Below the pieces are notes generated by a model, which searched no databases, was not told the DNA's origin, and saw only the letters and a list, made by a program, of their open reading frames with translations. DNA of 64,000 nt, from positions 29,005 to 93,004 of the forward strand of contig JAKBBA010000008.1 of the NCBI GenBank assembly GCA_021808665.1, written 5' to 3'. The position numbers were made by a program, and so were the translations under genes. Shown one piece after another: positions 44,441 to 63,806 of this stretch. The DNA is from Actinomycetes bacterium. GTDB taxonomy: Bacteria > Actinomycetota > Acidimicrobiia > Acidimicrobiales > Palsa-688. The first letter of the stretch is position 1, and every line of letters begins with the position of its first letter.

Positions 44441-45043
44441 TCATTTAAATCTGCGCGCGAACCTGCCGAGCATCACCGCTTTGCCGGCTTGCGGTTCGAG
44501 CTTGGTGGCAGCTGTAGCGGCCTTTTTGGCATCGGTCGCGGCCTTGGCATTGGCAAGTAGCTTCCTTTCCTTACCAAGGAGCCCTTTGGCTACGCCGAGC
44601 TCCTTTGAAGCCGCTGTCTTATCCTTCACCAGCACGCTACGCGCTCCCGAGACCCCGGGAGCCGTCTTGGCCTTAGACACCGAACCAGCCTTCTTCAAAT
44701 CTGACTCCGCCGCCTTAACATCAGACCCCAAACTAGAAGCGCCCTTCTTGACTACCCCCGCCACAGGAACAGACTTAGCCTTCGCCACAGAACGCGCCTT
44801 GGAAATGTCAGCCTTCAACTTCGACGCATCAGACGACAAACCAGGCTTGAGAAGATCCTTCTCCTTCACCAGCACGCTACGCGACGCTTTGATCGGCCTC
44901 GAGGATTTCGCAGCTTTTGCGATCTCCCCACCTGCCTTGCCTCCCAGTAGAGGAGCCAGGAGAGACGCCGCTCCGACGCCTCCACCAAGGCGGCTGTACT
45001 TAGACGGTGAAGGGGCAAACCTGCCCATTGCCGGGGTCCCCAT
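44441..45043 (-). CDS. Lysine/alanine-rich repeat protein of the contractile cluster, function unknown
   Basis: The 200-residue product is strongly basic and helical, dominated by Lys, Ala, Ser and Leu. It contains two related blocks, SRSVLVKEKDLLKPGL near residue 54 and ARSVLVKDKTAASKEL near residue 134, separated by 80 residues. An Ala/Gly-rich hydrophobic stretch (GGGVGAASLLAPLLGG) is near residue 20. The C-terminus reads MLGRFARRFK. The ATG overlaps the stop of the discoidin-like gene. The centre (about 44690-44840) has visibly more A/T-ending codons than its neighbours. It could be a cargo, nucleic-acid-binding or scaffold protein. Confidence 0.75.
   Translation of the reverse strand: MGTPAMGRFAPSPSKYSRLGGGVGAASLLAPLLGGKAGGEIAKAAKSSRPIKASRSVLVKEKDLLKPGLSSDASKLKADISKARSVAKAKSVPVAGVVKKGASSLGSDVKAAESDLKKAGSVSKAKTAPGVSGARSVLVKDKTAASKELGVAKGLLGKERKLLANAKAATDAKKAATAATKLEPQAGKAVMLGRFARRFK
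44622..44883. repeat. 22-bp perfect direct repeat, 240-bp spacing, inside the lysine-rich gene
   Basis: TCCTTCACCAGCACGCTACG followed by CG occurs identically at 44622-44643 and 44862-44883. The offset is exactly 240 bp (80 codons), so recombination between copies would remove 80 codons in frame. Confidence 0.85.
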
Positions 45044-46809
45044 CAGCTCTTCGTGAACAGTTCGATCTCAGCAATCGAGAGGTTCTTACCGCCCCCAGTG
45101 GCGGGGTAGACCGACAAAATCGAAATAGTGATGCTGCTGGTGGACTTGGTGGACACCGAGAAGGTCTGGAAGTTCGGCGTATCCGAGAGGGTGATGGTCT
45201 TGGACATCGGTGCCGGCCCATTGAAGACGACCTGCAACTGCTGTACGCGCGGTTCGGTGACGAAATCCTGGGGAAGGTCCTGGTCTCCGTTCAAGAAGCC
45301 GATCTTGGCGATGTCGGAAGGGGCTGGCAACTGGAGAGATATCGTCTGAGGCGTCGCCACCGCAGCGGACTGCCAGCTCGTGTTGATCGCGCCATCGATC
45401 AGGTTCGAAGCCGGGTGACCGGCGGCTGAACTGCTTGCCGTAGCGCTGACAGGATGCAGCGGATTGTATGTGGGATGGATCGTATTGGCGATGTCGTGGT
45501 AGTAGCGAGTCTCACGGGCGTGCAAAGATTTGTGCCAGGGACCGACGAAGGAAAGGAGGACTAAGGCCGCTACGCCGAGCGTCACCAGACGCGTCACCCA
45601 GCTTGTCAGCCATCCGGGTCCGGAACCGCCGATCGCGCGCCGCCGGGTCCTTGGTCGCTCACCCGCCGCGTGCTGGCGACGCATCGTGAGACGTCGCCAT
45701 AGTCGCCGGTACCACGACATGGTGTAGACGGCCGCCTCGACGAGGGACGCTCCGCAATGACGGCAGAACTGCCGGGTTGGGTCGTTGCCGAACCCGCACT
45801 GCCCGCAGATCTTGTCCCCCGGTTTGATATCGGGTGTCGCAAGTGGCTTCTTCGGCGCCGGCCGCCTCGCCGGGGCAGCGCCAGGCTTGACGGCCCCTGG
45901 TTGCACGGCCCCTGGTTGCACGGCCCCGGCGGGCTGGCGGCCGGACTGGACTGGACCAGCCTCGGTTGGCGAAGACGCCGGGGGTGACGCCACCACGTCG
46001 GGCGACCCGTCGATCGGCGGGGCTACTAACCCTGGGAGGGCTGCGTCCGTCTTCGACTCGGCGAACTGCGAGCGGGAGGGTTCGCTTGGCAGCGCAGCAC
46101 CCGGAGATGGACGAACAGAGCCCGGCCGGACGGCGCCAGGGAGCGAAGGCCCGGGTACACCGGGTACAACAGGGGCGGGCGCCGAGGTGGTCGCGTTGGC
46201 GTCGGCTCCTGCCAGACCGACTTGTTCGGCTGGGACGCGCGCGTCTTGCGTTTCGCCCAGAAGTCCCTGGTCCGCAGTCGGCGGCACCGACAGCCCGCCG
46301 GCTGCTGGAAGGTTCGACACCGTCACGTCATGCTCAGAGCCGCCTGCTGACGACGCCTCTATGTCAGTGCCGGCTGGCTCAGGTCCACCGCCTGCGATCG
46401 TCGCATTCCCAGTGAACAGGGGAGGCGGTGGCGGGGCCTGACCGACGCCGCGGTAGCCGGCTGGGCTCAAGGGCGCTGAGACCGGTCCGAGGTTGGCAGT
46501 TGAGACGCTGTCGGAATCCGACTCGGTTGACGTTTCGAGGGCCGGATCGTCAACGCCGGACGGTCCGGGTCCGCCCGCCTCGCCGGCGGCGGCGCCGGCT
46601 GCTACGTCAGTGAAACCGATAACCTCCTTGACCCTCCCGATGATCCCCTGACGGACCTCAGCCGGCGGTTCGGGCTCCGCTGCGGGCGTCGGCTCGGGCT
46701 CCGGGTCGGTCTCTACCCGCTTGCCGTCCCATTCCAGGAACGACGCGCAAGATCCACAGAAACTGTCAGAGTCTTCGTTCTCGAACCCACACCGGCTGCA
46801 AACGATCAA
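45043..46809 (-). CDS. Zinc-ribbon / single-TM / discoidin-like protein, candidate CIS membrane anchor
   Basis: The 588-residue protein begins with a zinc ribbon (CSRCGFENEDSDSFCGSC), followed by about 300 residues of Pro/Ala/Gly/Ser-rich linker. A second zinc ribbon (CGQCGFGNDPTRQFCRHC) lies near residue 335. An Arg-rich stretch precedes one membrane helix (LVTLGVAALVLLSFVGPW, about residues 403-423), giving N-in/C-out by the positive-inside rule. The outside domain (about 450-588) resembles F5/8 type C or NADase-type glycan-binding modules (HPASNLIDGAINTSWQSAA, KNLSIAEIELF). It starts with TTG overlapping the upstream stop. The role as docking factor is inferred. Confidence 0.8.
   Translation of the reverse strand: MIVCSRCGFENEDSDSFCGSCASFLEWDGKRVETDPEPEPTPAAEPEPPAEVRQGIIGRVKEVIGFTDVAAGAAAGEAGGPGPSGVDDPALETSTESDSDSVSTANLGPVSAPLSPAGYRGVGQAPPPPPLFTGNATIAGGGPEPAGTDIEASSAGGSEHDVTVSNLPAAGGLSVPPTADQGLLGETQDARVPAEQVGLAGADANATTSAPAPVVPGVPGPSLPGAVRPGSVRPSPGAALPSEPSRSQFAESKTDAALPGLVAPPIDGSPDVVASPPASSPTEAGPVQSGRQPAGAVQPGAVQPGAVKPGAAPARRPAPKKPLATPDIKPGDKICGQCGFGNDPTRQFCRHCGASLVEAAVYTMSWYRRLWRRLTMRRQHAAGERPRTRRRAIGGSGPGWLTSWVTRLVTLGVAALVLLSFVGPWHKSLHARETRYYHDIANTIHPTYNPLHPVSATASSSAAGHPASNLIDGAINTSWQSAAVATPQTISLQLPAPSDIAKIGFLNGDQDLPQDFVTEPRVQQLQVVFNGPAPMSKTITLSDTPNFQTFSVSTKSTSSITISILSVYPATGGGKNLSIAEIELFTKS
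45891..45927. repeat. 15-bp tandem repeat encoding QPGAV units
   Basis: CGGCCCCTGGTTGCA is repeated perfectly at 45891-45905 and 45906-45920 and partly again. On the minus strand it encodes repeated QPGAV in the flexible linker of the discoidin-like protein. Confidence 0.8.
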
Positions 46810-47618
46810 TCAGATTGTCCTTCTTGCTCGCTGCTTGCGTCTTTACCACCAAAGGGGCCGAGATCGCCTTCGCCGCCATCGGGGGGTTCGTCGACGCCGG
46901 GGGCTTCCATCTCGATGCGTTCCGACCCGGGCAAGTCCACCGCGCCGACACCGCCGTCCGAGACCTTGTCGTCGGGACCAGGTCCGAGGGAGTCGCTCGA
47001 CATTGCGACCCCCGATCGCGAGCGGATCTCCACTGTCGCTGGTACATGGGCGGGACGGGAAGCGTCTACGATGCGGTCGAGAGCCCTCCGGTCTACAGAC
47101 GACGGGTCGTCCGTTTCGACCCGCACGACTAGGTAGGGAGCGGGACTTCCCGGCAGGGCCGACATAGCCGTCTGCGACCAAGAGCACCCGCCGCTGTCGT
47201 GGATCTCCGGCGCAACGCCGGTGTAGAGCTCCACGTGCTCGCTTATCCCTGTGGCGGTGCCTCTCGAAGCGTAGAGCCGGACTGATGCACGGACTAGGGC
47301 GCGACGGCGTTCTGTCGACCAGTACTCGTCGACTTGCACCCCCACCCAGCCGGCGATCCAATCAAGAAAGTCGACTGGGGCTAGCTCGGCGTCCAGGTAC
47401 GCCTGGAGGCAGTCCAGTACCGAATAGATCGGGGCGGAGACCTCGTCGAGAGCTTCGCAAAGCCTCACACAGAAGTCGTCCTCGGCAAGCACCGACGGTA
47501 GCTGCTCGTAAAGTGTCCTCGCCGGGGTGAGGCCCGGCACCGTGCCCCGCTCGAAGGAGACCGCTCCGTCGAGGAAGCCTCCACTGCCAGGCGCCCCCGG
47601 CGCGACGACTAAGGCCAC
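46806..47618 (-). CDS. Phage tail protein I-like baseplate component of the CIS
   Basis: The N-terminal 200 residues resemble P2 gpI-type tail proteins: YEQLPSVLAEDDFCVRLCEA, LDCLQAYLDAELAPVDFLDW, IAGWVGVQVDEYWSTERRRA then RLYASRGTATGISEHVELYT. These occur at the distal end of CIS baseplate gene sets. The C-terminal 70 residues are acidic and Gly/Asp-rich, likely flexible. It starts with GTG directly after the TAA of the baseplate-J-like gene. Confidence 0.85.
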   Translation of the reverse strand: MALVVAPGAPGSGGFLDGAVSFERGTVPGLTPARTLYEQLPSVLAEDDFCVRLCEALDEVSAPIYSVLDCLQAYLDAELAPVDFLDWIAGWVGVQVDEYWSTERRRALVRASVRLYASRGTATGISEHVELYTGVAPEIHDSGGCSWSQTAMSALPGSPAPYLVVRVETDDPSSVDRRALDRIVDASRPAHVPATVEIRSRSGVAMSSDSLGPGPDDKVSDGGVGAVDLPGSERIEMEAPGVDEPPDGGEGDLGPFGGKDASSEQEGQSD

Positions 47619-49571
47619 TTAAGCCCCTTCGACCCGGACTTGGTGCTGGTAGGAGAAGACCAGGGCGTTGGGAGCCACGTCGACGCGCTGCGCCGGCTGG
47701 CCACGATCGCCGGTCAAGGGGTTCGCAGCGAACAAACGAACATCATCGACTATCTCCACACCTGGAAGGTTCTGCAGCACAGCGAAAATCTCTCCGATCA
47801 GGACGGGCCGCCCGAAAGGCCAACCCGAGCCATCCATACCACCCGTTATCGGGTGAAGATAATCGTATAACGCCTGGGTGGCGCTGCGCTTGAGACGAGC
47901 AGCATCCGACCACGGTCTGGGCGTCAGGGCCGCCACGACTGTCACTCCCTGGTAGGCCGGTGGTTCCACCACCACCCGGGCGCCGATAGCCCTGCGACGG
48001 TCAAGGGCGGTCGCGATGTCAGACAGCATCTCGGCCGCCGGCACGAGGCGTTCGAAGGGCAGAAGGCCGTCCTCGTCGTCGGCAACAGAAGGAACGACGA
48101 GAACCCGGACGCCGCCCGCGTCCTCCGGCCCAGAAGCCGGGACCGCCCTTATCCTCGCAGCTTGGGGGGCAGCAGCGCGGGCGAGCTCCTCGTAGTCCTC
48201 GGCGGTGACAGCCCTTCCCAGGGTGCGAAGCAGTACAGGTCCCCTGACTTTGGCCTCGTCAAGGGTCTCGCCGTCCACGCCGCCCGTCGCCGCAACCCGG
48301 TTCTCTACGCGACTCACGAACGGTATCGAGTTACGCAGGACCCTTATCGCGCCTTTGGAAACGTTGCCCTGCCTGCCACCACCACAACGGTAGGGGCGGG
48401 CGCGCAGCACCGAACCTTTGGCTGGGACCGCTCCGTACTGGGTGACGCTGCCGTCGGGGTTACGCACGAGAGGCCCTAGGGTGACCTCCCCGAAGGTCCG
48501 GTCCAACGTGAAGTGCCGGTCCGCCGGTCCGCTCTGTGCGAACGTGGTGACCTCTGTCCAGGTTTGCCAGCCGTCGTCCTCGTCGGAAACCTCAAGCTCG
48601 AAAGGCTCGCCTGAACCGACCACGGGATATTTGTCGAGTTGGAAACGTTCACCAGCGACTCCATCGGACACCCCGATCACCTGCTCGGAGATCCGCTCCG
48701 CCTGGTAGGCCCTGGTGGTCCCCCCGATCGTGAAAGCCTCTATCGAGTTGATCGTCGGCGAGTTCGAGTAGAACGGCTGATCAGGACGCGGGTCCACCAG
48801 TCGCGCCCGAACCCATCCCGCTCGCAGGGTCTGGAACACCGACAAGGTGTGAGAGTCGGGAACGTGCAGCACCACGTCACCTTGGCGGTTCAGCCCACCG
48901 GTTGAGTCGGATTCGATCTCGCACTCGACCCAGTCGGTCCCGTCGAAAGCTTCCCACACCAGCGGCGGGTCGGACGGATCCACTCCGATACCTTCGATTC
49001 GACAGTCGAAGCGAAGATTAAGCACGCACCTCGGCACCGCGGCCGACACGCCTACTAGGAGCACCTCCCCTGGTACGGGGTTTGCGGAGAAACACGAGAA
49101 GCCTGCCAGCTTGATCGTGTCGGTGTGGTTACGCCACGTTCCGCTGGCAGGGATCGAGCATATGTAGGAGAACTCGCAGGGCACGATGTCCAAGGCCTCG
49201 TCCACTGTGAAGACCACGGGCTGGGCTTCGGTGTCGCCGCGCGGTGTCGCAACCTCGACACCCTCCGGGACTCGGATGGTCTCCTCTTGGGGTGCGGACA
49301 ACCAGAACGTCACGTTGCACGACGCAGCGGTGGGCGGGAACAGCTGGACACCGACCAGTTCCAAGAACTTTATATAGTTGAGATCGGGCACCCGGTTGAG
49401 CCGGTAGATCAGCTGGTCGGTCATGTACGCGAAGGTCTCGATCAGTGTGACACCCGGGTCGGACACGTTGTGGTCGGTCCATTCGGGGCATCGCTGCATC
49501 ACCAGGCGCTTTGCGTCGTCTACGAGGCTTTGGAAACGTCGGTCGTCGAGGTTCGGGGCGGGCAGCGTCAA
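47619..49571 (-). CDS. Baseplate J-like wedge protein (Afp11/Pvc11 type)
   Basis: The 650-residue product starts MTLPAPNLDDRRFQSLVDDA and has the family segment WTDHNVSDPGVTLIETFAYM then TDQLIYRLNRVPDLNY. The C-terminal half carries the baseplate-J core (ATGGVDGETLDEAKVRGPVL, AVTAEDYEELARAAAPQAAR) and GRPVLIGEIFAVLQNLPGVE. It forms part of the baseplate wedge. Only one J-like protein is seen, while Afp and PVC encode two. TTG start, six bases after the gp25-like stop. Confidence 0.9.
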   Translation of the reverse strand: MTLPAPNLDDRRFQSLVDDAKRLVMQRCPEWTDHNVSDPGVTLIETFAYMTDQLIYRLNRVPDLNYIKFLELVGVQLFPPTAASCNVTFWLSAPQEETIRVPEGVEVATPRGDTEAQPVVFTVDEALDIVPCEFSYICSIPASGTWRNHTDTIKLAGFSCFSANPVPGEVLLVGVSAAVPRCVLNLRFDCRIEGIGVDPSDPPLVWEAFDGTDWVECEIESDSTGGLNRQGDVVLHVPDSHTLSVFQTLRAGWVRARLVDPRPDQPFYSNSPTINSIEAFTIGGTTRAYQAERISEQVIGVSDGVAGERFQLDKYPVVGSGEPFELEVSDEDDGWQTWTEVTTFAQSGPADRHFTLDRTFGEVTLGPLVRNPDGSVTQYGAVPAKGSVLRARPYRCGGGRQGNVSKGAIRVLRNSIPFVSRVENRVAATGGVDGETLDEAKVRGPVLLRTLGRAVTAEDYEELARAAAPQAARIRAVPASGPEDAGGVRVLVVPSVADDEDGLLPFERLVPAAEMLSDIATALDRRRAIGARVVVEPPAYQGVTVVAALTPRPWSDAARLKRSATQALYDYLHPITGGMDGSGWPFGRPVLIGEIFAVLQNLPGVEIVDDVRLFAANPLTGDRGQPAQRVDVAPNALVFSYQHQVRVEGA

Positions 49572-49577: not shown

Positions 49578-49976
49578 TCAGTCTTCCTCTGGTATCACGT
49601 AAAAAGGGAACACCAAGTTACGCGGATCGTAGGACCCTTTCTTGGTGTAGTGAATGTCTATGTACATCAAGTTGCGGTCGGCGGCGTCGATGCTCACGTC
49701 CACGCGCTCGACGTCGATGCGCGGCTCCCACATGGTGAGCGACCGCTTCACTTCGGAAGCCAACTGCCCCGCGGTGGTCGCATCAGCGGATGCGAAGACG
49801 AAGTCGTGGATACCGCAGCCGAAACCGGGACGCATTGGGCGCTCGCCGGGCGAAGTTGCGAGAATGAAACGAATCGCCTGCGCGATGTTACGGTCGTCGG
49901 CCGCCATGGCGATACCGCCGGAAGCGTCCGTCCCCAGAGGGTAGTTCCAGCCCTGCCCTACGAACTTCTCCGCCAT
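49578..49976 (-). CDS. gp25-like baseplate wedge protein (Afp9/Pvc9)
   Basis: The 132-residue product has the gp25/IraD-like core: NIAQAIRFILATSPGERPMR then PGFGCGIHDFVFA, with the family's EXR-like region in SPGERPMRPGFG. It joins sheath initiation to the baseplate. It sits between spike and baseplate-J genes, the standard CIS order. Usually a PAAR gene follows here; in this window it is elsewhere (63432). Confidence 0.92.
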   Translation of the reverse strand: MAEKFVGQGWNYPLGTDASGGIAMAADDRNIAQAIRFILATSPGERPMRPGFGCGIHDFVFASADATTAGQLASEVKRSLTMWEPRIDVERVDVSIDAADRNLMYIDIHYTKKGSYDPRNLVFPFYVIPEED

Positions 49977-49984: not shown

Positions 49985-51820
49985 CTACCCGCCGAGGCTT
50001 ATGCTCTGCGAAGACACAGCTACGCTCGGTGCCTCTATCTTGGCGCTGGCCTTACCGCTCAACCCGACCTCGGAGCCCGAAGCTGACACCTTACCTTCGC
50101 TGGAGAGGGCTACACCCTGTTTGCCCGTTACGCTCACTTGGCCGCCGTTGGCTTTCAACTCCAGGTTGCCACTAGTAGCCTCCAAGGTGATCCCCTTGTT
50201 GCCTTTCACGGTGACCGTACCGTCGGTGCACTCGATCGTGATCGCCTTGGTCTTCTCGTCGAGCTTGATCGTGACGTTCCCCAGCCCGCTCTTGATGGTG
50301 ATCCCAGAGTTGTCAGGGCCGTCGTCGAAGAGGACAGTGTGCTTTGCCCGCGACGTTATCCTCCTGCTGGCGACGACGTCGGTTATCTGGGCTTCGGGTT
50401 TCGGCTTTCCTATACCCTTGTATAGGTTGCCTATCACGAACGGGTGGTCGATGTCCCCCCTGTCGAAGCCGACGAGGACTTCCTCGCCTACTTCCGGGAC
50501 GAAGAGGAACCCCCACTCCCCCGTCTTTCCCGCCCCGATCTGCATCGTTCGAGCCCAGGCGCTCTTATAACTGTCCGACAGCCACGGGAACGTAACCTTG
50601 ACACGTCCGGACTGCTCGGGGTCTTTGTTGTCGTCGACGGTTCCTATCACCAGACCTGGAACCCGGCCCTGGCTTACCAGCTCAGAGTAGCTGCGCCCCG
50701 ACACCAACGCAGCGAGGGTACGGTCCCGCTTGCCGCCCACCGTGAACCAGGTGGTGTAACCGCCGTTGCCCGGCTCGTAGCAGTGCCTGACGGCCGAGCA
50801 CACGTACTGCCCGTCGAAGGGCTGCCCGGCCATTCCTATGCTGATCACCTCGCCTGACAATACCGACGGGTTTCCGTAGCACTGACCTTCGATCTCGGCA
50901 AGAGCGCCTGCTATGTCAGCTGCGATAGAAGAAGCAATGTTGGACGCTTCGCCTTCGGAGTCGACCGGTCGAGCGGCGTCGTAGAACTTCTTAGCGCCTT
51001 TCATCTCGCCGCCGACGATTGCTGGTTGGACACCCGGGTCGGTCACTTCGGCGGTCGACCCCAATGCCTCTCCCACTCCAACGACCTTCACAGAGGCCTT
51101 GGCGTCGTAACCGGTGACGACCACGCCCTCCACCTGCTCGGCGCCCGTCACCGACGAGCGCAGCCGGATGAGGTTACGTCCTGCGACCATCTGAGTGGAA
51201 AGCGGCTTCTGGTCATAAGACATAGCCGGTGGCGGGCCGTCTTGGGCTTTGGGCACCTTCTTAAAGTTGAACAAGCCCAGGGCGTCGACGTAAGCAAGCC
51301 TGTTTTCGCGCTGAGCCAGCTGCTGCACGAAAACCCAGGGGCTCACGCTGGGCTGTGACAACCAGGCGTAAGGGGCACTTGTCGGCTCTATCACTCCGAC
51401 CTCGACCTGGTACTGGCCGAGGATCTTCTGTACGACTTCGGAGGCTGTCATCTCCGGGTAGGCGTCGATCACGGTCCCGTGCATAAGACGGTGGGACGGA
51501 TCGAGGGCTCGCACCACGGCCATACGGCCCTCCGGCCCGAGCTCCAAGTCGACGCCGGTGACCTCACCGGTGAAGATCGGCTTAGGGGCGGAACCGACGC
51601 TGACGGCGACCCTGACCTTCACTCCGAGCTTGAGTCCGCTCTTGGTGAGGGTGTCGTCGGTGGCAGCGCGAAACACTAGGCGCATCTGCGAAGGCAGGAA
51701 CAGGCTGGACTCGACCTCGCAGGAGGTCACGTACTTGAAGATCGAAGGGGAGAGAGGTTCACCGGCGACACCGACTCTCACCGATATGGCCGCCCCGGCG
51801 GTGCCGTTCGTAAAAGCCAC
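49985..51820 (-). CDS. VgrG-like central spike protein (Afp8/Pvc8)
   Basis: The 611-residue protein combines a gp27-like N-terminal part (VTSCEVESSLFLPSQMRLVF), an OB-fold region (VIGTVDDNKDPEQSGRVKVT, GEEVLVGFDRGDIDHPFVIG) and a C-terminal repetitive beta-helix (VTIKLDEKTKAITIECTDG onward to SISLGG). It trimerises into the needle that pierces the target membrane. No extra effector domain is attached. GTG start with GAGGAG upstream. Confidence 0.95.
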   Translation of the reverse strand: MAFTNGTAGAAISVRVGVAGEPLSPSIFKYVTSCEVESSLFLPSQMRLVFRAATDDTLTKSGLKLGVKVRVAVSVGSAPKPIFTGEVTGVDLELGPEGRMAVVRALDPSHRLMHGTVIDAYPEMTASEVVQKILGQYQVEVGVIEPTSAPYAWLSQPSVSPWVFVQQLAQRENRLAYVDALGLFNFKKVPKAQDGPPPAMSYDQKPLSTQMVAGRNLIRLRSSVTGAEQVEGVVVTGYDAKASVKVVGVGEALGSTAEVTDPGVQPAIVGGEMKGAKKFYDAARPVDSEGEASNIASSIAADIAGALAEIEGQCYGNPSVLSGEVISIGMAGQPFDGQYVCSAVRHCYEPGNGGYTTWFTVGGKRDRTLAALVSGRSYSELVSQGRVPGLVIGTVDDNKDPEQSGRVKVTFPWLSDSYKSAWARTMQIGAGKTGEWGFLFVPEVGEEVLVGFDRGDIDHPFVIGNLYKGIGKPKPEAQITDVVASRRITSRAKHTVLFDDGPDNSGITIKSGLGNVTIKLDEKTKAITIECTDGTVTVKGNKGITLEATSGNLELKANGGQVSVTGKQGVALSSEGKVSASGSEVGLSGKASAKIEAPSVAVSSQSISLGG

Positions 51821-52970: not shown

Positions 52971-52972
52971 TG

Positions 52973-56118: not shown

Positions 56119-56609
56119 TGTTCCCCCAGGCGACCACCGGCCAGATCGACCGTGAAACGCTCGTGGCATGCCGGGCACGTGACCGCCGCCCGTGTGTGGC
56201 CCTCGGTGTTAATTCTCTTGTAGAGCTCCTGCAAGAAACGCAGGTCCGACGCAAAAAGGTTCTCGATCACCGAGGCCCGGACGTCTTCGTTACCGAGATC
56301 CCCGAGCCTGGTGATGACCCTGGCGAGTATCACGACCGTCTGATAGGCGGGATTCTCTCTAACCCGGTCGTCGTGGATAGGGAGAAGTTCGTCGCGTGCT
56401 GTTGCAAGACGCATAGTTCCGAGCTTGTGAACCTTGCCGTTGGCGTCCACGTAGCCTCGCGGCAGTTCGAAGTCGAACTCGGTCCGCAGCGGCTCGGGCC
56501 GGCTCGGGGCGACGGTCGCATCCCGAGCCGGCCCTTGTGAGTCGCTCTGGTGATGCTCGTCGCCCTCTTCCCACGCCTCGGTCGGCTGGGTCTGGACGAC
56601 TCGCTTCAT
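56115..56609 (-). CDS. Tail-assembly-chaperone-like CIS protein with C-terminal zinc knuckle
   Basis: The 164-residue product has an acidic disordered N-terminus, then a core LRTEFDFELPRGYVDANGKV followed by MRLATARDELLPIHDDRVRE and VVILARVITRLGDLG, resembling phage Mu gp41-type tail assembly proteins. The C-terminus has TCPACHERFTVDL, half of a zinc-binding site. Placement directly after the tube gene with overlapping TGATG supports an assembly role. Family assignment is tentative. Confidence 0.7.
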   Translation of the reverse strand: MKRVVQTQPTEAWEEGDEHHQSDSQGPARDATVAPSRPEPLRTEFDFELPRGYVDANGKVHKLGTMRLATARDELLPIHDDRVRENPAYQTVVILARVITRLGDLGNEDVRASVIENLFASDLRFLQELYKRINTEGHTRAAVTCPACHERFTVDLAGGRLGEQ

Positions 56610-57070
56610 CAGTCGCCCTTCTCGAGACCTTCGTGAACTATCGTCAGCTTCTCGGTCAGAACACTGGTATCACCAGCTTTGAGCGTCCCGATCTCGAGCG
56701 ACTTGGGCCAGCCGTTGACGAACTTGAACTCCATGGTCGCGTCGCCCATGTAGTTGTACAACTTGATTGAGCCGTGCTTACGGGCGGACTTGACGTCGCC
56801 TTTGAACACGAGCTCGATCCAGTCCACCCACTTCTTGTCGCCGTTGATACCCCGGGTGAGGGTGATCTCACCGGCCTTCTTGCGACCGGGAAGTCTCTTG
56901 TTGATGTACTTACCGTCGATGGTGTTGTGCTTGAGCTCGATCTCGTCGGACTCGAGCTTCAACCCGGAGACCTCTTGGATCTCCTTGATCTCGATCCCGT
57001 CGATCTCGAGGCCGAACGACCAACCGACCCCGGTGTCGTACAGCTCACCTGAATAGAACGTCCCTGACAC
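56609..57070 (-). CDS. Main inner tube protein (Afp1-type)
   Basis: The 153-residue tail tube protein (T4 gp19/Hcp fold) starts MSGTFYSGELYDTGVGWSFG and contains EIDGIEIKEIQEVSGLKLES, KRLPGRKKAGEITLTRGING and a C-terminal LTEKLTIVHEGLEKGD. It stacks as hexameric rings inside the sheath. GGAGG precedes the GTG by nine bases, 19 bp after the sheath stop. It is the likely major tube subunit because of its place beside the sheath gene. Confidence 0.94.
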   Translation of the reverse strand: MSGTFYSGELYDTGVGWSFGLEIDGIEIKEIQEVSGLKLESDEIELKHNTIDGKYINKRLPGRKKAGEITLTRGINGDKKWVDWIELVFKGDVKSARKHGSIKLYNYMGDATMEFKFVNGWPKSLEIGTLKAGDTSVLTEKLTIVHEGLEKGD

Positions 57071-57089: not shown

Positions 57090-58634
57090 TCACTCGTTGA
57101 CAAGGCTTGTTCCGCCGGAGAACTGCGAGAGGCGGAAGATGACGAACTCTGCTGGCTTGACTGGGGCGACGCCGATCTCGCATATCACCTGGCCGGCGTC
57201 GATCCCTTCGGCGGGGTTGGTCTCCCCGTCGCACTTCACGTAGAACGACTCCTGCGGCGATAGGCCGAACAGGGCCCCTTTACGCCACTCGTTGACAAGG
57301 AAAGCGGAGATCGTCCTGCGGATCTTCGACCACAGCGCGTAGTCGTTCGGTTCGAAGACCACCCAGTCGGTCCCGTTCAGGATCGACTTTTCGAGGTAGT
57401 TGAACAGCCGTCGAACGTTTAGATAGCGCCAAGCTGGATCAGAGGACAGGGTCCTCGCTCCCCATACCCTTATCCCTCTCCCGGGGAAGGCGCGAATACA
57501 GTTGATGCCGACCGGGTTGAGCAGGTCGTGCTCGTTCTTGGTGATGTTGATCTCCAAGTTGATGGCACCGCGAACAACCTCGTTGGCGGGGGCCTTGTGG
57601 ACACCTCGTGAGTCGTCGTTACGGCCCCAGATCCCGGCCATGTGACCGCTGGGGGGAACGAAGATGTTCGTGCCGCTCGACGGGTCGAAGACCTTCACCC
57701 ACGGCCAGTACAACGAGGCGTACTTGGAGTCGTAACCTGCCTTCTCGACTCGCCACTCCTTTACCTGTTGGGCGTTGAGGCCGGGGGGAGGGTCGAGGAT
57801 GGCGACCCTGTCACCCATGAGCTCGCAGTGAGCGATCATCGCCAACTGGACCGCTTGGACGCCTTCGAGGTCGATCATCCCCCTCTGGTAGGCGGACATG
57901 AGGTCAGGGACGCTGACCATCGTTACCTCGTCGACTGCTTCCAAGCCGCCGAAGCCGGTGCGGTCAGCTGAGTCGCCAACGTAGTCGTCGGGAGCGAGGC
58001 TCGTGGTGGCAGGAGCCCCGCCACCAGCGAGGGACACGGTTCCACGCGTCACCTTCTCGGCGCTCACACCGAGGTCTTCGAGGCGTATCAGCTTCGACTG
58101 GGCGTTGACGACCGTTACGACGTTCTGGCGACCCTTCTTGGTGGTCAAGTTGTCGAAGGTCTCTTCGACCTTCCCACCGCGTTTGACAACTACCTTGAAG
58201 GCGTCCTCGCCGGCGCCTTCGGTCGAGGAGTCGGTCACTTCCACCGAGATATCGTTGCCGGCGGAACCCTCGACGAGAGCCTCGACCCGGAACGCACCGG
58301 AGGCGGAGGCGCCAGGGGCCGTCCCGGCGGCCGCCAACTCGGCGCGCGCGGGCGGAGCTGAAGCAGCAACGTCGGTGCCGATGCGAACGACGTAGCAGGC
58401 GCCGCCGCCGTTCAGGAAGTAGCCGTATACAGCATGGGCCAGGTACGAGCCCTCTACGAACTCGCCAAAAGTGTTTGTGAACTGACTCCAGTTGGTTACG
58501 AGTGTAGGGGCGTTGAACGGTCCGGCTGAGGCCAAGCCCACGAATGCGGCGACCGCGGTGCCCACGCCCTCAATGGGCCGGGAACCGGAGTCCACTTCCT
58601 CAACATAGACACCGGGTGACAGGTACGTCGGCAT
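57090..58634 (-). CDS. Contractile tail sheath protein
   Basis: The 514-residue sheath protein begins MPTYLSPGVYVEEVDSGSRP, the universal sheath N-terminus, followed by GTAVAAFVGLASAGPFNAPT and a variable inserted domain near residues 115-200. The conserved C-terminal domain includes INCIRAFPGRGIRVWGARTL, RYLNVRRLFNYLEKSI and EIGVAPVKPAEFVIFRLSQF. Only one sheath gene is present, whereas Afp encodes three. AAGGAGG precedes the ATG. A promoter of its own is possible because a 119-bp gap lies upstream. Confidence 0.97.
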   Translation of the reverse strand: MPTYLSPGVYVEEVDSGSRPIEGVGTAVAAFVGLASAGPFNAPTLVTNWSQFTNTFGEFVEGSYLAHAVYGYFLNGGGACYVVRIGTDVAASAPPARAELAAAGTAPGASASGAFRVEALVEGSAGNDISVEVTDSSTEGAGEDAFKVVVKRGGKVEETFDNLTTKKGRQNVVTVVNAQSKLIRLEDLGVSAEKVTRGTVSLAGGGAPATTSLAPDDYVGDSADRTGFGGLEAVDEVTMVSVPDLMSAYQRGMIDLEGVQAVQLAMIAHCELMGDRVAILDPPPGLNAQQVKEWRVEKAGYDSKYASLYWPWVKVFDPSSGTNIFVPPSGHMAGIWGRNDDSRGVHKAPANEVVRGAINLEINITKNEHDLLNPVGINCIRAFPGRGIRVWGARTLSSDPAWRYLNVRRLFNYLEKSILNGTDWVVFEPNDYALWSKIRRTISAFLVNEWRKGALFGLSPQESFYVKCDGETNPAEGIDAGQVICEIGVAPVKPAEFVIFRLSQFSGGTSLVNE

Positions 58635-58753: not shown

Positions 58754-59347
58754 CTAGCTGAAGTGCCGTTCGACGGCGGCGGCCGCCGCCGCGTCTGCTT
58801 CGCGCTCGTGGCGGTCGCCTGGATCGGAGATCTTCAGCCCGTCCGAGGTCTCGGTGCCTTCCACCGCGCCGTGCGCCTGCTGATTGACGATGTGGTGCAC
58901 CTCGTGCACAGCTTTGAACGCTCCTTCCATGGTGGTCACGTCGAGACCTTTCGGGGCGACAAGGTGCGGCCCGGAGGCGAACATCTCCGCCCCGACCGAT
59001 CTTGCGGCCTCCGCCGCCTGGGGACCTTCGTGGAGTTGTATACCCGACGGGTCCCGCCCCGTGGCGGTCTGCACGAAGCGACTGGTCGACGAGTCGAGCG
59101 GCCGGCCGGGGGCGGAAACGACGGAACGCACCAGGTCACCTGGGCTCGACAGCATCGACGAAACCGCTGCGTTGCCGGCTCCCTGCTGGAGCCGGGACAA
59201 GCCGGGCTCGGCGCCCGGTTGGCTTCGCTCCTGAGACGGTTCGTCGTGTGCCGGCTCGAAAGCGTTCAGGGTTGGGCGGCTTCCGCCTTGTAGCGGGGCG
59301 TGACCGGCTGGCCCGTTGGATCCTGCCATCGCATCGCTACCCGCCAT
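58754..59347 (-). CDS. DUF4157 (HExxH) protein of the CIS
   Basis: The 197-residue protein has a low-complexity N-terminus, then the DUF4157 core: LDSSTSRFVQTATGRDPSGI, VGAEMFASGPHLVAPKG, the zincin motif in AVHEVHHIVNQQ near residue 148 and a distal DRHEREADAAAAAAVERHF that may supply the third ligand. DUF4157 proteins are strongly associated with eCIS loci and often with toxins; this one carries no additional domain. It overlaps the ATPase gene by 11 bp. ATG at 59329 is an alternative start. Confidence 0.85.
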   Translation of the reverse strand: MAGSDAMAGSNGPAGHAPLQGGSRPTLNAFEPAHDEPSQERSQPGAEPGLSRLQQGAGNAAVSSMLSSPGDLVRSVVSAPGRPLDSSTSRFVQTATGRDPSGIQLHEGPQAAEAARSVGAEMFASGPHLVAPKGLDVTTMEGAFKAVHEVHHIVNQQAHGAVEGTETSDGLKISDPGDRHEREADAAAAAAVERHFS

Positions 59348-61691
59348 GGCGTCGCGCCCCTTCCTTGTGGGCCGGGACTGTAGCCGGATAGTACTGTCCG
59401 AACTCGCCGGCGACGACGAGACGACCGAGCTTGCGGTACTCGAGCTGTATGGCTCTTACCAGGTCGTCCATGGAGACGGCCCTGCCGGAGTCAGCCGCAG
59501 AGTAAGCGGCCGCCGTGGCTATGCTGCGTATGTTGCCGCCCGAGAGCTCGAAGGACTTAGCGCAAAAGTCGAGGTCCAAGTCGTCGTCTCTGGGCACACC
59601 CGGAGCCAGGCAACGTTCCCACAGTGCCCGGCGCTGTTCGACGTCGGGCTTAGGAAAATCGACCACTAAGTCCAAGCGGCGGGCGAAAGCGTCGTCTACG
59701 TTGGCCCGCAGGTTGGTTGCGAGTATCGCTATCCCGTCGAAGGTCTCCATCCGCTGCAACAGGTAAGCGACTTCTATGTTCGCGTAGCGGTCGTTGGCGT
59801 CGCGGACCTCTGAGCGTTTTCCGAAGATGGCGTCGGCCTCGTCGAAGAGCAAGACTGCGTTGACCCCGTCCGCTTCGGAGAAGATCCTTTCGAGGTTCTT
59901 CTCGGTTTCACCGACGTACTTGTCGACAACGGTCGCAAGGTTCACCGCATAGAGGTCCAACCCGAGCTCGCCTGCCACCACTTCCGCCGACATGGTCTTG
60001 CCGGTCCCTGAGTCCCCTGCGAACAGTGCCGTGATGCCGCGCCCTCTCCCGCCGCCGGGTCTCATACCCCACTCGTCCAAGACGACGCTCCGACGCCGAG
60101 CTCGCGCCGAGAGGTCTCTCAACGAGTCAGCGGTCGACGGGGCAAGGACCAGGTCGTCCCAGCCAACGCCCGGCACTATGCGCCGCGCCAGGCGTTCCAG
60201 GCCGGCACTGTTCTGGGATCTGGCACCTTGCAGGACGTGGTCTACACCAACCGGGCTGCCGTCTAGGAAGGCCTGGTTGCGAGCTGCCAATACCGCCCTA
60301 GCGACCTGTTCGGCGGATAGGACGAACTGGCTGGCGACGTCAGCCGCCGAGCTCATGTCGACCTCACTGTCACCCAGAGCCTTCTGCCACCAGGCCGATC
60401 GCGTGGCGGCGGGCGCGGCTTTGACGTCAGCGACGACCGGGACCCGGTCAGCCCAAGACGGATCCCAGGCCCTCCTTCCGTAAAAGACGACAGGGACCAC
60501 CGCCTTGGCGCCAGGCGACAGCCCGACACCGACGATCCGTGACACGTAAGACCGAACAGCCGCATTGCCCAACTCGGCTATCACGTCGAGAGGACCGACC
60601 ACCAAGCCGGCGTCCGTGAGGACGGCCTCACGGCGCGCCAAGGACATCAAGTTCGCGGCGTCCCTTACGGGGTCGATGTTCGCAAGGTCGATCGCAACCG
60701 TGGACTTACCCGCCGCCTTGAAGGCTCCGGCCGCCAGCGTCGTGACCGAGGCCCCGGGCCGGTCCCGTAGGTACACCATTTCGACCCCACCTTCGATCGT
60801 CCGCCCGAGCGAATCGCACAGCGAGTCGGACCACGTTGCGGCGGGATAGCTGAGCGCCCCGGCGGTGGCCAACGCAGACACCTCAGCTCCGAGCAGGTGT
60901 CCGACCACCCTGTCAGGGACATGCAGAGACCTCGACAGGGCCGGGCGGTCGGGTTCCTCGACTTCGAGTAGACCGCAGCTGACAAGGGGGCCGTCTGGAG
61001 ACAGACGCCGCCGCGCCGACACCGTCCAGGGCGACTCCCCTGCCAACTCTAACGCCAGGGCGACCGTCGCTCGCCGTCTGGTTACGTCGTCGTTCAGGTA
61101 TCCATACAGACGCTCGAATCGCAAGTCCAGGTCGGGGGCTATCGCGATGAGAACGAGGTTGACGTCAGTCCTGTCGAGGTCAAGGCGTTCGGCCAGTTCA
61201 GCAAGGCGAATGTCACGCCCGTCCATCCGCGCTCGGTATGCCTCCCGCTCCAGGGAGGCTATTGCCTCGCCGTCGTCCCACGCGAATGCTTTCGAGCCGA
61301 ACCTTTCGGACACGATCGATGCTACGTGCTCGTCGGCCAGGTACAAGCCTCGGAAAGGATCGTCAGGGTTGGGGTCCACGGCCCTCCTGCGATCCACCAG
61401 TGCGCCGACCCGCCCGTGGACGATCCCGAGCCGTGCCAGTAGGTAGGCAGCCGAGTCACCGAGCACGCTCTCAGGGGCTCTTGCCACCGGCGGGCGTGGG
61501 GACACCGCGGTCAGATCCTCTCCGCTGGTGGCCACGGGCCCGCGAGGGACTTCGCGGGCAGAGCGCTCGACTGGTTCGACCCGGTCGATCTCAGGCGACG
61601 CCACCTCGACGGCTGGTTCTGAAACCCGCACGGAGGCTGAGGCCTGACGCGACTCGGGAACGACCCGGCGGACACTGCCCGGAAGTCTCAT
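59337..61691 (-). CDS. AAA+ ATPase of the CIS (Afp15/Pvc15 type)
   Basis: The 784-residue protein ends in a classical AAA+ module: Walker A FAGDSGTGKTMSAEVV (about residue 557), Walker B AVLLFDEADAIFGKRSEVRD (about 613), and sensor/arginine-finger region ILATNLRANVDDAFARRLDL. The N-terminal 500 residues include a degenerate second ATPase-like domain (FKAAGKSTVAIDLAN). CIS ATPases of this family are needed for particle assembly. Start ATGA overlaps the terminator gene. Confidence 0.95.
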   Translation of the reverse strand: MRLPGSVRRVVPESRQASASVRVSEPAVEVASPEIDRVEPVERSAREVPRGPVATSGEDLTAVSPRPPVARAPESVLGDSAAYLLARLGIVHGRVGALVDRRRAVDPNPDDPFRGLYLADEHVASIVSERFGSKAFAWDDGEAIASLEREAYRARMDGRDIRLAELAERLDLDRTDVNLVLIAIAPDLDLRFERLYGYLNDDVTRRRATVALALELAGESPWTVSARRRLSPDGPLVSCGLLEVEEPDRPALSRSLHVPDRVVGHLLGAEVSALATAGALSYPAATWSDSLCDSLGRTIEGGVEMVYLRDRPGASVTTLAAGAFKAAGKSTVAIDLANIDPVRDAANLMSLARREAVLTDAGLVVGPLDVIAELGNAAVRSYVSRIVGVGLSPGAKAVVPVVFYGRRAWDPSWADRVPVVADVKAAPAATRSAWWQKALGDSEVDMSSAADVASQFVLSAEQVARAVLAARNQAFLDGSPVGVDHVLQGARSQNSAGLERLARRIVPGVGWDDLVLAPSTADSLRDLSARARRRSVVLDEWGMRPGGGRGRGITALFAGDSGTGKTMSAEVVAGELGLDLYAVNLATVVDKYVGETEKNLERIFSEADGVNAVLLFDEADAIFGKRSEVRDANDRYANIEVAYLLQRMETFDGIAILATNLRANVDDAFARRLDLVVDFPKPDVEQRRALWERCLAPGVPRDDDLDLDFCAKSFELSGGNIRSIATAAAYSAADSGRAVSMDDLVRAIQLEYRKLGRLVVAGEFGQYYPATVPAHKEGARRHGG

Positions 61692-62419
61692 CCTTTGACG
61701 GTCCGGCGCTGGTGGGTGTTACGCGCCCGGCGCGGCTGGGCGGCTGCGCTAGGTCCCGACGGTTCGTGCCCATCCGGTAGGGCCGGTTCGCTCGAGCCTT
61801 CAGGCCAGGCGCGCGCCTGGCGCTCGTCGTCTTGAGCTTCGAATGTCTTTTGGGCGGAAGCTCGAAGTCGCATCGGTGCCATGACCGCTTGGGCGATGTC
61901 GAAGAACCGGTCTGGTTCTATCGCCATGTGGACTACCAGGTCGACTGAGGGCTTCAAGTCTCCACCGAGCGAGGACCACACATCGGAAACCTGCCGGTCC
62001 TCGGGCGGTGGGTAGGCGATCTGGACCCCAAGCGGCGTACCTGCCTCTAGGAGGATCGGCGTCATGTACGTGCTCGGCAGGACGTCGTAGCGCATGAAGG
62101 CCCCGAGGGTCGCTGCCAGCAGGCGGTGCTCGTCCTCGGGTCTTTGGGTCCACGCGGTTATCAGGTAGGCGAGCTTGAAGATCCTGGGCAGAGCCCGCCG
62201 TTCTTCGACAACGCCCTCTTCGTTGCGACGCTCCCTCACGCCGACGGAGCGCCTGCGGGTGTCCTCTCTGATGTCGTAGAGGTACATATCCACCGTCGGC
62301 TTGTTACGCCGCGACGACCAGTCCCTCGTCGGTGCGTCGAAGACGACCTCCACGTCGGTGCCGTTGACCACTTCGGCCTTGACCAGTGATCTGAGCGCCT
62401 CATCAACTTCATTTATCAT
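61688..62419 (-). CDS. DUF4255 tail terminator (Afp16/Pvc16 type)
   Basis: The 243-residue product starts MINEVDEALRSLVKAEV and has KPTVDMYLYDIREDTRRRSV, LPRIFKLAYLITAWTQRPED and EHRLLAATLGAFMRYDVLPS, all typical of DUF4255/Pvc16 terminators that cap the tube and sheath. The C-terminal 45 residues are basic and Pro/Ala-rich. It is the first structural gene after the LuxR regulator, with a 105-bp gap between them that holds no gene. Confidence 0.93.
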   Translation of the reverse strand: MINEVDEALRSLVKAEVVNGTDVEVVFDAPTRDWSSRRNKPTVDMYLYDIREDTRRRSVGVRERRNEEGVVEERRALPRIFKLAYLITAWTQRPEDEHRLLAATLGAFMRYDVLPSTYMTPILLEAGTPLGVQIAYPPPEDRQVSDVWSSLGGDLKPSVDLVVHMAIEPDRFFDIAQAVMAPMRLRASAQKTFEAQDDERQARAWPEGSSEPALPDGHEPSGPSAAAQPRRARNTHQRRTVKG

Positions 62420-62524: not shown

Positions 62525-63145
62525 TCAAATTACGCCGACTCTCATAGCGTGGGCTACGGCGTGGACGCGGTTTCTCAGCTGATGGCGGACGATGATCCCG
62601 TGGACGATGTTCTTCACAGTCCGTTCGCTGTAAGAAAGCTTGTTCGCAATGTCCGCCGTGCCCCATCCCTCTGAGAGGAGCCTCAAGACGTCGACCTCCC
62701 GCTCGGTAAAGCCGGTCAGGGAGAGTCCTCTCGGCGCGAGAAGTTGACGCTGTAGCTTGCCTACCTGGCCTAGAAACCTTCCGACCAACTCCGGGGCCAG
62801 GCCGGCTTCGCCTTTGGCGCATGCGGCCACGACGTCTCCGAGCCGGTCCGCCGTCGCCTCGAATCGCCGTAGGATGCTGCACACTCCTGCTTCGACGGCC
62901 GGCAGCAAAGCTGAGTCGTCGAGGTGGGTCACTACGGCTAACACCCGCCGGCTACCGTCGTGGCTCGCCTCGCGAATAGCGCGAATAGCGTCAGCGTCGA
63001 TTTGTTCGACCACGACGACGATCACGTCGGCCTCGTCTTGATCGTCTGGACTCTTCACCGACACAGAGTGGCTTTTCGCAAGCTCGACCCGTATCCCCGC
63101 CGCTGAGATCGGGTCGAACGCCTCCACCTCCACTAACACGGCCAT
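62525..63145 (-). CDS. LuxR-type regulator with degenerate receiver domain
   Basis: The C-terminal LuxR HTH (about residues 140-206) contains FTEREVDVLRLLSEGWGTAD then IANKLSYSERTVKNIVHGII. The N-terminal 115 residues have a receiver-like pattern, but the phosphoacceptor strand reads ADVIVVVVEQID, with Val where Asp is expected, and the conserved Lys near the end is Arg (ILRRFE). Phosphorylation-independent control is likely. It is first in the contractile operon and divergent from the PAAR-like gene, as LuxR-type regulators are in Streptomyces CIS loci. Confidence 0.88.
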   Translation of the reverse strand: MAVLVEVEAFDPISAAGIRVELAKSHSVSVKSPDDQDEADVIVVVVEQIDADAIRAIREASHDGSRRVLAVVTHLDDSALLPAVEAGVCSILRRFEATADRLGDVVAACAKGEAGLAPELVGRFLGQVGKLQRQLLAPRGLSLTGFTEREVDVLRLLSEGWGTADIANKLSYSERTVKNIVHGIIVRHQLRNRVHAVAHAMRVGVI

Positions 63146-63345
63146 CTAGCATTCCTGTCATCCAAAGCCCCGGAGGCGCTGTGCGCCGCTGCGTAGAATC
63201 CCGCGTAGGAACCGTCGGAAAGCGACCGATCCAAAGTAGCAGAGCTAACTAATCTGTCCATCATTGCCTTTCTTGGTGCAGTTTGTCACGGGACGCTGAT
63301 CAGATTATGACGCCGACCTCTAAACGACCGCTCAACGTCGGCTCA

Positions 63346-63380: not shown

Positions 63381-63431
63381 TCGCGCCTTGCGCTTGTAGA
63401 TAATTCGCTTGACGCGGCCTAGCATCGATGC

Positions 63432-63806
63432 ATGCCTAACGTGGTCGTCGCAGGAGCGATGGTCGGTTGCTCGATGAGCATTCCACCTCTGGAGCCAATG
63501 CCTTTGGCGGTCACACCGTCGGGTCCCTCAGTCACCGCCGGCCCTTTGGTGGCCACTGTGATGGCGATCACGCCGGAGAACATCGCCACGTTCGGTGACT
63601 GCACCGCCCCTGGGAACCCGGCGTGCGCCAACCCGACCAAGCAGGGGCCTTGCAAGCCGATGATCGCCGGGCCGTGGGCACCCGGTTCGGTCACCACCAA
63701 GATCGGGGGTATGGCGGTGCTCACCGACGACTCGGTGTGCGAATGCGCTTACGGCGGTGTGATCAAGGTGATAGAGGCGGGCCAGGAGATCGTTACGGCC
63801 GTCTAG
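63432..63806 (+). CDS. PAAR-like (DUF4280) spike-tip protein
   Basis: The 124-residue protein matches the DUF4280/PAAR-like pattern: VVAGAMVGCSMSIPPLEPMP, ITPENIATFGDCTAPGNPAC, GPCKPMIAGPW and CECAYGGVIKVIEAGQEIV, with conserved cysteines for zinc. PAAR proteins sharpen the VgrG-like spike and can carry effectors. Unusually it is divergent from the main operon rather than between the spike and baseplate genes. Short, so no effector is fused. Confidence 0.88.
   Translation: MPNVVVAGAMVGCSMSIPPLEPMPLAVTPSGPSVTAGPLVATVMAITPENIATFGDCTAPGNPACANPTKQGPCKPMIAGPWAPGSVTTKIGGMAVLTDDSVCECAYGGVIKVIEAGQEIVTAV

Follow-up and report, generated by a model that had tools for sequence, protein, structure and literature searches.

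A type IId contractile injection system in an acidimicrobial genome, with a CisA-type protein in the fibre position and a candidate disordered tape measure

The contractile injection system (CIS) described here lies in a 64,000-nucleotide stretch of DNA, referred to as the window, which comprises positions 29,005 to 93,004 of contig JAKBBA010000008.1 (GenBank assembly GCA_021808665.1) from an actinomycete of the order Acidimicrobiales. The system is intact and occupies positions 44441-63806 of the window. Its operon runs on the minus strand and begins with a LuxR-type regulator gene, and a gene for a PAAR-like protein diverges from it. Among the Pfam matches of the cluster are Pvc16_N, an AAA ATPase with a winged helix, the sheath, two gp19-type tubes, Phage_base_V, gp25, Baseplate_J, Tail_P2_I, and a DUF4280 PAAR-like protein, and the CIS_tube and LysM domains of the hub fall just below the cut-off. 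Sheath, tube, spike, gp25, J, Pvc16_N, and AAA ATPase are clustered without capsid genes, as is characteristic of CISs. All components read as uninterrupted frames without internal stops, the ATPase carries Walker A (GDSGTGKT) and Walker B (VLLFDE) motifs, and the cluster holds a single sheath gene and a single J-like gene. An initial annotation had listed the same structural components, with one sheath gene, one J-like gene and a divergent PAAR gene, as a complete-looking system, and the family searches bear this out; no frameshift was seen in the sheath or ATPase gene. Its list left out a 53-residue DUF6760 gene and did not name two proteins with a DUF4157 (eCIS_core) domain, and its range ended just short of an associated YkgJ-like gene. 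The genes of the cluster and its closest companions are the following:

63432-63806, plus strand: PAAR-like tip protein (DUF4280), divergent (Pfam DUF4280, 1.2e-22)
62525-63145, minus strand: LuxR/GerE-type regulator, first gene of the operon (Pfam GerE, 1e-9)
61688-62419, minus strand: Cis16 tail terminator, Pvc16_N (Pfam, 1.7e-40)
59337-61691, minus strand: Cis15 AAA+ ATPase with winged-helix domain (Pfam WHD, 1.9e-24; AAA, 6.7e-23; Walker A and B)
58754-59347, minus strand: small eCIS_core (DUF4157) protein with intact HEVHH, Sle2-like by position (Pfam eCIS_core, 1.3e-10)
57090-58634, minus strand: Cis2 contractile sheath (Pfam Phage_sheath_1, 7.8e-23; PDB 8bky)
56609-57070, minus strand: Cis1a inner tube (Pfam gp19, 3e-30)
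56115-56609, minus strand: putative tail assembly chaperone of the Mu gp41 family, with a C-terminal CPxC (PHROG 508, E 2e-7)
55957-56118, minus strand: DUF6760, 53 residues, second chaperone-like frame (Pfam PF20546, 5.1e-15)
52973-55960, minus strand: 995-residue protein, proposed tape measure (Pfam eCIS_core with HELTH at residues 722-795; position; conserved ends)
52536-52979, minus strand: Cis1b tube initiator (Pfam gp19, 3e-20)
51830-52513, minus strand: Cis7 hub with LysM (Pfam CIS_tube, 7e-5, and LysM, 9e-4, both just below cut-off)
49985-51820, minus strand: Cis8 VgrG-like spike (Pfam Phage_base_V, 2.3e-24)
49578-49976, minus strand: Cis9 gp25-like wedge protein (Pfam GPW_gp25, 6.6e-25)
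47619-49571, minus strand: Cis11 baseplate J (Pfam Baseplate_J, 1.2e-12)
46806-47618, minus strand: Cis12 tail protein I (Pfam Tail_P2_I, 2.1e-14)
45043-46809, minus strand: predicted CisA-type membrane adaptor in the fibre position (Pfam; cysteines; hydropathy)
44441-45043, minus strand: Lys/Ala-rich repeat protein with two RSVLVK[ED]K motifs (sequence)
43274-44422, minus strand: cysteine-rich YkgJ-like protein, 17 cysteines (relatives L145 and L147)

Judged by its sheath, the system is of a known kind, the cytoplasmic lineage of Streptomyces and Chloroflexota that has been named type IId (PMC12237407, PMC10020575, PMC12998442). Against PDB sequences, the sheath scores 722 bits with 8bky/9gtp (E 2.8e-216), 713 bits with 8bl4/9gts and 384 bits with 9ezm, and only 150-186 bits with Afp2, Afp3, Pvc2, and Pvc3 (Pvc2 E 1.4e-53, Afp3 E 2.3e-45). 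The entry 8bky, labelled in the table only as a phage tail sheath protein, is identified as the Streptomyces coelicolor sheath from the deposited structure and from statements in PMC10066040 and PMC12237407. Among 84,980 species genomes, 183 related loci were confirmed, and the best 80 by sheath likeness (L001-L080) were kept; they include Acidimicrobiia, Streptomyces, Micromonospora, Kribbella, Arthrobacter, and others, together with many Chloroflexota. The gene order from sheath to baseplate is identical across these 80 loci wherever the contig allows, and Cis15 and Cis16 lie on the opposite strand in most of the Chloroflexota loci. In a tree of 38 hand-chosen sheaths, the window falls in a group of four (support 100/98) with three Actinomycetota genomes, one of them labelled Acidimicrobiaceae. 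This group nests among actinobacterial and Chloroflexota sheaths, and the Roseiflexus and Deinococcus sheaths form a separate branch (100/100). By homology with this lineage, the particles probably lie free in the cytoplasm and fire inside the producer. No sheath match was found in the nearest relative genome (G001).

The inner tube has a different set of neighbours. It is 68-73% identical to those of L005, L007, L008, L009, and L018 and 81% identical to that of L083, and only 39-42% identical to those of L001-L004, although the sheaths of the latter are 83-86% identical to that of the window. Because the tube diverges from loci whose sheaths are so close, the tube gene may have been exchanged between lineages.

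The gene directly after Tail_P2_I, where phage Mu has its fibre gene, encodes a protein of 588 amino acids (aa) that its domain order identifies as a predicted CisA-type membrane adaptor. This order consists of a zinc ribbon, a Pro-rich stretch, a second zinc ribbon, a hydrophobic helix at about residues 401-426, and a discoidin domain (F5/8 C, NADase_transloc). An Arg-rich stretch precedes the predicted membrane helix, and the hydropathy maximum is 2.05 at residue 405. The protein has only eight cysteines, all within the two ribbons, and all eight are invariant in 16/16 chosen rows, two of them from Streptomyces. Besides the window's own protein, these rows hold two plasmid genes and 13 out of 19 further hits. 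The remaining six hits, several of them short, enter only a wider set of 20 rows, in which only the four cysteines of the second ribbon are listed as invariant (20/20). Among 41 relatives, a search with the CisA alignment matched 23 at E 0.001 or better; seven of these matches are strong (E 1e-37 or better), and six of the seven are in sheath-positive genomes. Sheath-positive G014 gives a weak match, in the outer domain. The CisA of S. coelicolor is reported to be bitopic, with a cytoplasmic N-terminus, one membrane helix and an outer C-terminal domain, and to be required for contraction without forming part of the particle structure (PMC12237407). Its Cys-rich region beside the membrane helix had earlier been suggested to bind zinc and the baseplate (PMC10020575), and the two ribbons offer a concrete candidate surface for such docking. 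A CisA-type adaptor downstream of the baseplate genes, as present here, is a usual, not universal, mark of type IId. The initial annotation had reported that a fibre was lacking. Pfam does find no fibre family in the cluster, but the Afp13-like slot is not empty, since the CisA-type protein occupies it. The further reading of the system as Streptomyces-like, fibreless, and probably intracellular, not an exported particle of the Afp type, agrees with the sheath scores, the tree, and the CisA-type protein.

Three genes lie between the tube and the tube initiator, coding for the chaperone, DUF6760, and the 995-aa protein. The last of these is the largest frame of the cluster and lies between the chaperone and the hub side, which is the position of phage tape measures. 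Its AlphaFold2 (AF2) model places 787 of 995 residues under a predicted local distance difference test (pLDDT) score of 50, and the confident parts are a domain at 722-824 and a helix at 956-984. The model is not mostly helical or coiled-coil, and the helix at 956-984 is the sole long confident one outside DUF4157. No helical tape measure can be recognised, as the initial annotation had noted, but its claim that the system is without a tape measure finds no support, because this disordered protein fits the place of one.

A long protein is present in all loci that have both chaperone and tube initiator (62/62); the other 18 of the 80 lack one flank in the available DNA, many through a contig end. 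A first listing took frames with HExxH or above 400 aa without use of a C-terminal motif, and missed the copy of L032 through overlapping coordinates, which was recovered later; a second picking, which used a C-terminal motif, gave 60/62, and L002 and L075 were added by eye. The 60 extracted copies measure 447-1481 aa with a coefficient of variation of 0.23, where start codons were picked by script and single lengths may be off, above all the 447-aa minimum. Sheath and chaperone vary less, with coefficients of 0.028 and 0.029, and of the seven other proteins measured the most variable is Cis11 at 0.125, a set that contains truncated rows. Conservation is concentrated at both ends of the 63 sequences compared, which come from 60 loci, the window, the S. 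coelicolor-type locus, and L101: strong positions other than Pro or Ala number 12 in the N-terminal 160 residues, 12 in the C-terminal 60, and 0-3 in each of four interior blocks of 160 aa. The C-terminal motif was partly used to pick the frames, the N-terminal block was not. The C-terminal helix matches DUF4157 proteins of Roseiflexus, Thermogemmatispora, and Deinococcus (HHalign 96%, E 4.8e-9), and six control sets made of C-termini from other cluster proteins reach 0.3% or less.

Among the side observations on this family, the Deinococcus grandis plasmid locus (L098, 16675-20454) encodes a fusion of tube and DUF4157/anchor protein of 1259 aa, with broken-looking sheath pieces upstream. In L114 (8061-12281, G164), whose sheath is 100% (rounded) that of S. 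coelicolor, much of the long protein seems to be read in the wrong frame. In Streptomyces, L076-L078 have versions of about 600 aa, which had suggested a uniform length for the genus until a version of 1378 aa was found in the S. coelicolor-type locus; Micromonospora versions have about 720-1000 aa.

The two small frames upstream resemble the chaperone genes of phage tails. All five CIS chaperones tested (window, L001, L076, L012, and L100) match PHROG 508, the tail assembly chaperone family to which Mu gp41 itself belongs (E 6e-49). For the counterparts in L001, in L076 from Streptomyces, in L012 from Chloroflexota, and in L100 from Deinococcus, PHROG 508 is the best hit, with E values of 3e-4 to 3e-6. 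The GTG start of DUF6760 overlaps the chaperone stop (GTGA). DUF6760 is found in 91/101 loci, some genomes being counted twice, and in 11/41 relatives, that is, in 11/13 sheath-positive and 0/28 sheath-negative ones; it is found in 0/14 control genomes. A literature search on DUF6760 returned nothing, and one joining the Streptomyces CIS with a tail assembly chaperone returned only an unrelated Oenococcus phage study.

Gene content, order, intactness, family memberships, conservation, and predicted disorder are established directly. Their best explanation, which we regard as likely, is a cytoplasmic CIS of type IId in which the long protein is the length-setting chain and a CisA-type protein triggers firing at the producer's own membrane. 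The case for 52973-55960 as the ruler combines its place in the gene order, the chaperone, conservation at both ends, and the length trend described below. In the proposed mechanism, the C-terminal helix of the 995-aa protein would dock on the tube initiator or hub (Cis1b/Cis7/Cis8), and the Mu-gp41-type chaperone with DUF6760 would keep the chain soluble. The Cis1a tube and Cis2 sheath would then polymerise around it as far as the conserved N-terminal block, where Cis16 would cap the tube, so that the chain would set the length of the particle. The built-in DUF4157, along with the small DUF4157 protein encoded ahead of the sheath gene, would also make the 995-aa protein cargo or a cargo adaptor. 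By analogy with S. coelicolor CisA, the CisA-type protein would trigger firing at the inner face of the membrane, its cytoplasmic zinc ribbons binding the baseplate. A broader form of the proposal, held with somewhat less confidence as slightly more likely than not, extends it to the type IId CISs of Actinomycetota, Chloroflexota, and Deinococcota. There, length would be set by a disordered Pro-rich ruler, pinned at the hub by its C-terminal helix, carrying a second conserved block at the opposite end in the 63 copies compared (mostly from Actinomycetota and Chloroflexota), and served by a Mu-gp41-type chaperone and DUF6760. In the window, Roseiflexus, and Deinococcus, DUF4157 would be built in and the ruler itself injected. 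A literature search, which was not exhaustive, found no published type IId ruler.

If the long protein sets the length, longer proteins should go with longer particles. In an S. coelicolor-type genome, the sheath agrees with the PDB sequence at 100% (rounded) over 530 residues, and the long protein measures 1378 aa from the first GTG. The particles of S. coelicolor are reported as uniform, 268 nm long and built of 60 tube layers (PMC12237407), as 295 nm by negative stain (PMC10020575), and as about 230 nm for a non-contractile mutant in vitro (PMC10066040). The protein of Roseiflexus sp. RS-1 has 974 aa; the 43 nearest Roseiflexus-type hits (P0030-P0072, RS-1 included) have 886-981 aa and the more distant P0077-P0082 have 820-1038 aa. 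The particles of R. castenholzii measure 217 +/- 16 nm in culture (PMC12998442). D. psychrotolerans has a protein of 1831 aa, and stop-to-stop frames reach 1535 aa in D. taeanensis, 1830 aa in D. actinosclerus, and 1999 aa in D. aquaticus; the particles of D. aquatilis measure 365 +/- 39 nm (PMC12998442). Pairing the RS-1 protein with R. castenholzii particles and the D. psychrotolerans protein with D. aquatilis particles, three points (974 aa/217 nm, 1378 aa/268 nm, 1831 aa/365 nm), two of them congeneric proxies, give a line of 0.174 nm per residue with a 41-nm intercept. Phage tape measures span about 0.15 nm per residue. About 1070 aa had been expected for Roseiflexus from S. coelicolor alone before the 974-aa protein was seen; the D. 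psychrotolerans length was already known. The ratio of Roseiflexus to S. coelicolor is 0.71 in protein length (RS-1) and 0.81 in extended particle length, and lower, at 0.62 (86.7/140), for contracted sheaths. With its few points and two proxies, the relation is a consistent trend, not a passed test. For the window, it predicts about 43 tube rings, a tube of 166 nm (at 230 nm per 1378 aa), and a particle of 205-215 nm.

Several points weigh against this interpretation, beginning with the trend itself. The slope rests on three points and ranges from 0.145 to 0.236 depending on the Deinococcus chosen; the frames of D. taeanensis, D. actinosclerus, and D. aquaticus are annotated as shorter genes in PLSDB; and D. 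grandis, with its tube fusion, is an exception. The spacing of 0.17 nm per residue would suit a helix more than a stretched-out chain, whereas the present family, unlike helical tape measures, is Pro-rich and disordered. Roseiflexus-like particles in mat cells are reported to be longer than those in culture, at 251 +/- 26 nm (PMC12998442). The 995-aa protein has no tape-measure family hit in Pfam or PHROGs. Statements that a (typical) tape-measure gene is absent from the lineage occur in PMC10066040, PMC12237407, and PMC10286715. The long protein is not among the S. coelicolor particle proteins named as detected in the relevant passage of PMC10020575, and PMC10066040 says only that most particle components were detected; according to the latter, the lumens of effector-mutant particles are mostly empty, where a ruler chain should remain. 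Regarding the chaperone, the E proteins of P2 and 186 belong to PHROG 103, not 508, and its AF2 model (mean pLDDT 71) gave no fold match in the PDB, so its assignment rests on PHROG 508 and position. DUF6760 aligns with P2 E' at only 67% over 20 columns and not at all with Mu gp41', a comparison not used as proof, and neither chaperone nor DUF6760 matched any of 50,697 phage records by tblastn at E 0.1 and 0.01. Regarding CisA, 6/13 sheath-positive relatives are without a match better than 1e-5, and the S. coelicolor homologue was detected in all three purified particle samples of PMC10020575, unlike the account in PMC12237407.

The strongest competitor, itself rather unlikely, holds that the 995-aa protein is cargo only, a DUF4157-guided effector of the Tme/Sle type with no recognisable toxin end, and that length is set otherwise. 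The eCIS_core domain with HExxH is present in two window proteins (52973-55960 and 58754-59347), and that of the long protein has an intact HELTH. DUF4157 proteins are reported to bind the tube initiator in S. lividans, where Sle2, encoded just upstream of the sheath, was found to interact with it, and S. davawensis has a DUF4157 effector, Tme (PMC13277306, PMC11126660). The cluster shows no other recognisable large effector, and none resembling Sle1 or Sco4256 was recognised in the window, where no search by sequence was made for either. With HELTH intact and no such effector recognised, the ruler candidate may itself be cargo. Several findings speak against cargo alone: DUF4157 is present in just 6/58 family members scanned (the window, included in the six, and 57 of the 62 loci), whereas the conserved ends are general, Pfam finds no toxin domain in the window protein, and the chaperone lies directly upstream, as in phage tape-measure operons. 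The known effectors are poor candidates for the ruler, since particles of the triple effector mutant resemble the wild type (PMC10066040), and Sle1 and Sle2 are unlikely in this role because their loss is reported to leave particles without apparent defects (PMC13277306). The roles of ruler and cargo are compatible, not exclusive.

An exported extracellular CIS, with a fibre encoded elsewhere in the genome or with the protein in the CisA position acting as an outer fibre, is improbable. The discoidin domain in the fibre position would suit it, the S. coelicolor homologue was at first called a putative fibre and was detected in purified particles (PMC10020575), and the negative result for fibres covers the cluster, not the rest of the genome. 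The membrane helix predicted to separate the zinc ribbons from the discoidin domain nevertheless fits a membrane adaptor, and the bitopic S. coelicolor CisA is reported to be needed for firing but not to appear in the particle structure (PMC12237407). A remnant prophage tail or tailocin, suggested by the phage-like order of the tail genes, is scarcely credible in view of Pvc16_N, the AAA ATPase and the DUF4157 proteins, of a Pfam scan of 44 window proteins that found no family of capsid, terminase, or lysis proteins, and of icd (42085-43281), which adjoins the cluster on the CisA side and is found on that side too, 3-9 kb off, in L145, L146, and L147 (87-88% identity), so that the CIS occupies a shared chromosomal place.

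For the preferred reading, in which the long protein is the ruler of a cytoplasmic CIS, the interest lies in particle length. The particles of S. coelicolor are uniform in length though a tape-measure gene is reported to be absent (PMC12237407), and the candidate makes this question testable; its orthologue there would be SCO4249, counting from the sheath gene sco4253 with sco4245 (baseplate wedge protein BW1) as a check; one paper labels SCO4249 as PhoP, apparently by a slip. If the proposal is true, a disordered chain can serve as a molecular ruler and tape measures need not be helical, the gene reported missing in Streptomyces has been found, and in some lineages the ruler itself is injected.

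The surroundings of the cluster are core metabolism and housekeeping genes. On the CisA side, 43274-44422 encodes a protein which we take to be YkgJ-like, with no Pfam hit over the cut-off. YkgJ-like frames 47-55% identical to it lie between Cis12 and CisA in L145 and L147, and Lys/Ala-rich genes resembling 44441-45043 precede the same gene in both. A sequence search with the Lys/Ala-rich protein itself gave no match in the 41 relatives. The YkgJ-like gene appears from these two relatives to be CIS-associated. In L145 (5367-6782, G009), an FG-GAP repeat protein is encoded between the YkgJ-like gene and CisA, and none is found there in the window. At the other end, the placement of the PAAR gene varies among related loci: related genes with 35-38% identity immediately precede the sheath gene in L088-L092 and also occur within L147, and blastp found none in L001-L080. 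A LuxR protein 40-58% identical to that of the window precedes Cis16 in L001, L004, L007, and L008. The genes for the regulator, the 995-aa protein, CisA, and the ATPase contain two TTA codons each; in Streptomyces, CIS regions are reported to be frequently under bldA control (PMC10020575).

Compared with contractile phages, the window parallels Mu position by position. Mu has the order sheath, tube, gp41 (with a frameshift extension), gp42 tape measure, N, P hub, 45 spike, 46-47-48 wedge, and S fibre, and in the window the tube initiator stands at the place of N and CisA at that of the fibre. The FI-FII-E-E'-T order of P2 and 186, that is, sheath, tube, chaperone, second frame, and tape measure, is also that of the window. 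In contrast to these phages, the window has no capsid, CisA replaces the fibre, the tape-measure candidate is disordered, and the second part of the chaperone is a separate 53-aa frame with an overlapping start.

Tme from S. davawensis and Sle1/Sle2 from S. lividans are likewise DUF4157 proteins and are linked to tape-measure-like cargo close to the tube initiator; by contrast, no nuclease or other toxin end was found in the window protein. The Roseiflexus/Deinococcota branch of type IId (PMC12998442) also has a long Pro-rich protein that contains DUF4157 and carries the C-terminal helix seen in the window. Its gene, however, comes after the second tube gene in Roseiflexus RS-1 and D. psychrotolerans, unlike in the window, and close CisA homologues are reported to be absent from Roseiflexus (PMC12998442).

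The CIS of S. coelicolor (sco4242-sco4260) differs from the window in its long protein of 1378 aa, against 995 aa, and in its effectors Sco4256-4258, whose like was not recognised in the window, where no sequence search was made for them. The window has in addition a PAAR-like gene, a DUF4157 domain in the long protein, and the YkgJ-like and Lys-rich companions. Both systems share a single sheath (62% identical between the window and L113), two tubes, Cis7, Cis8, Cis9, Cis11, Cis12, and a CisA-type gene in the same order, as well as Cis15 and Cis16, reported for S. coelicolor in PMC12237407 and PMC10020575, and both carry the chaperone and the long Pro-rich protein in the same places.

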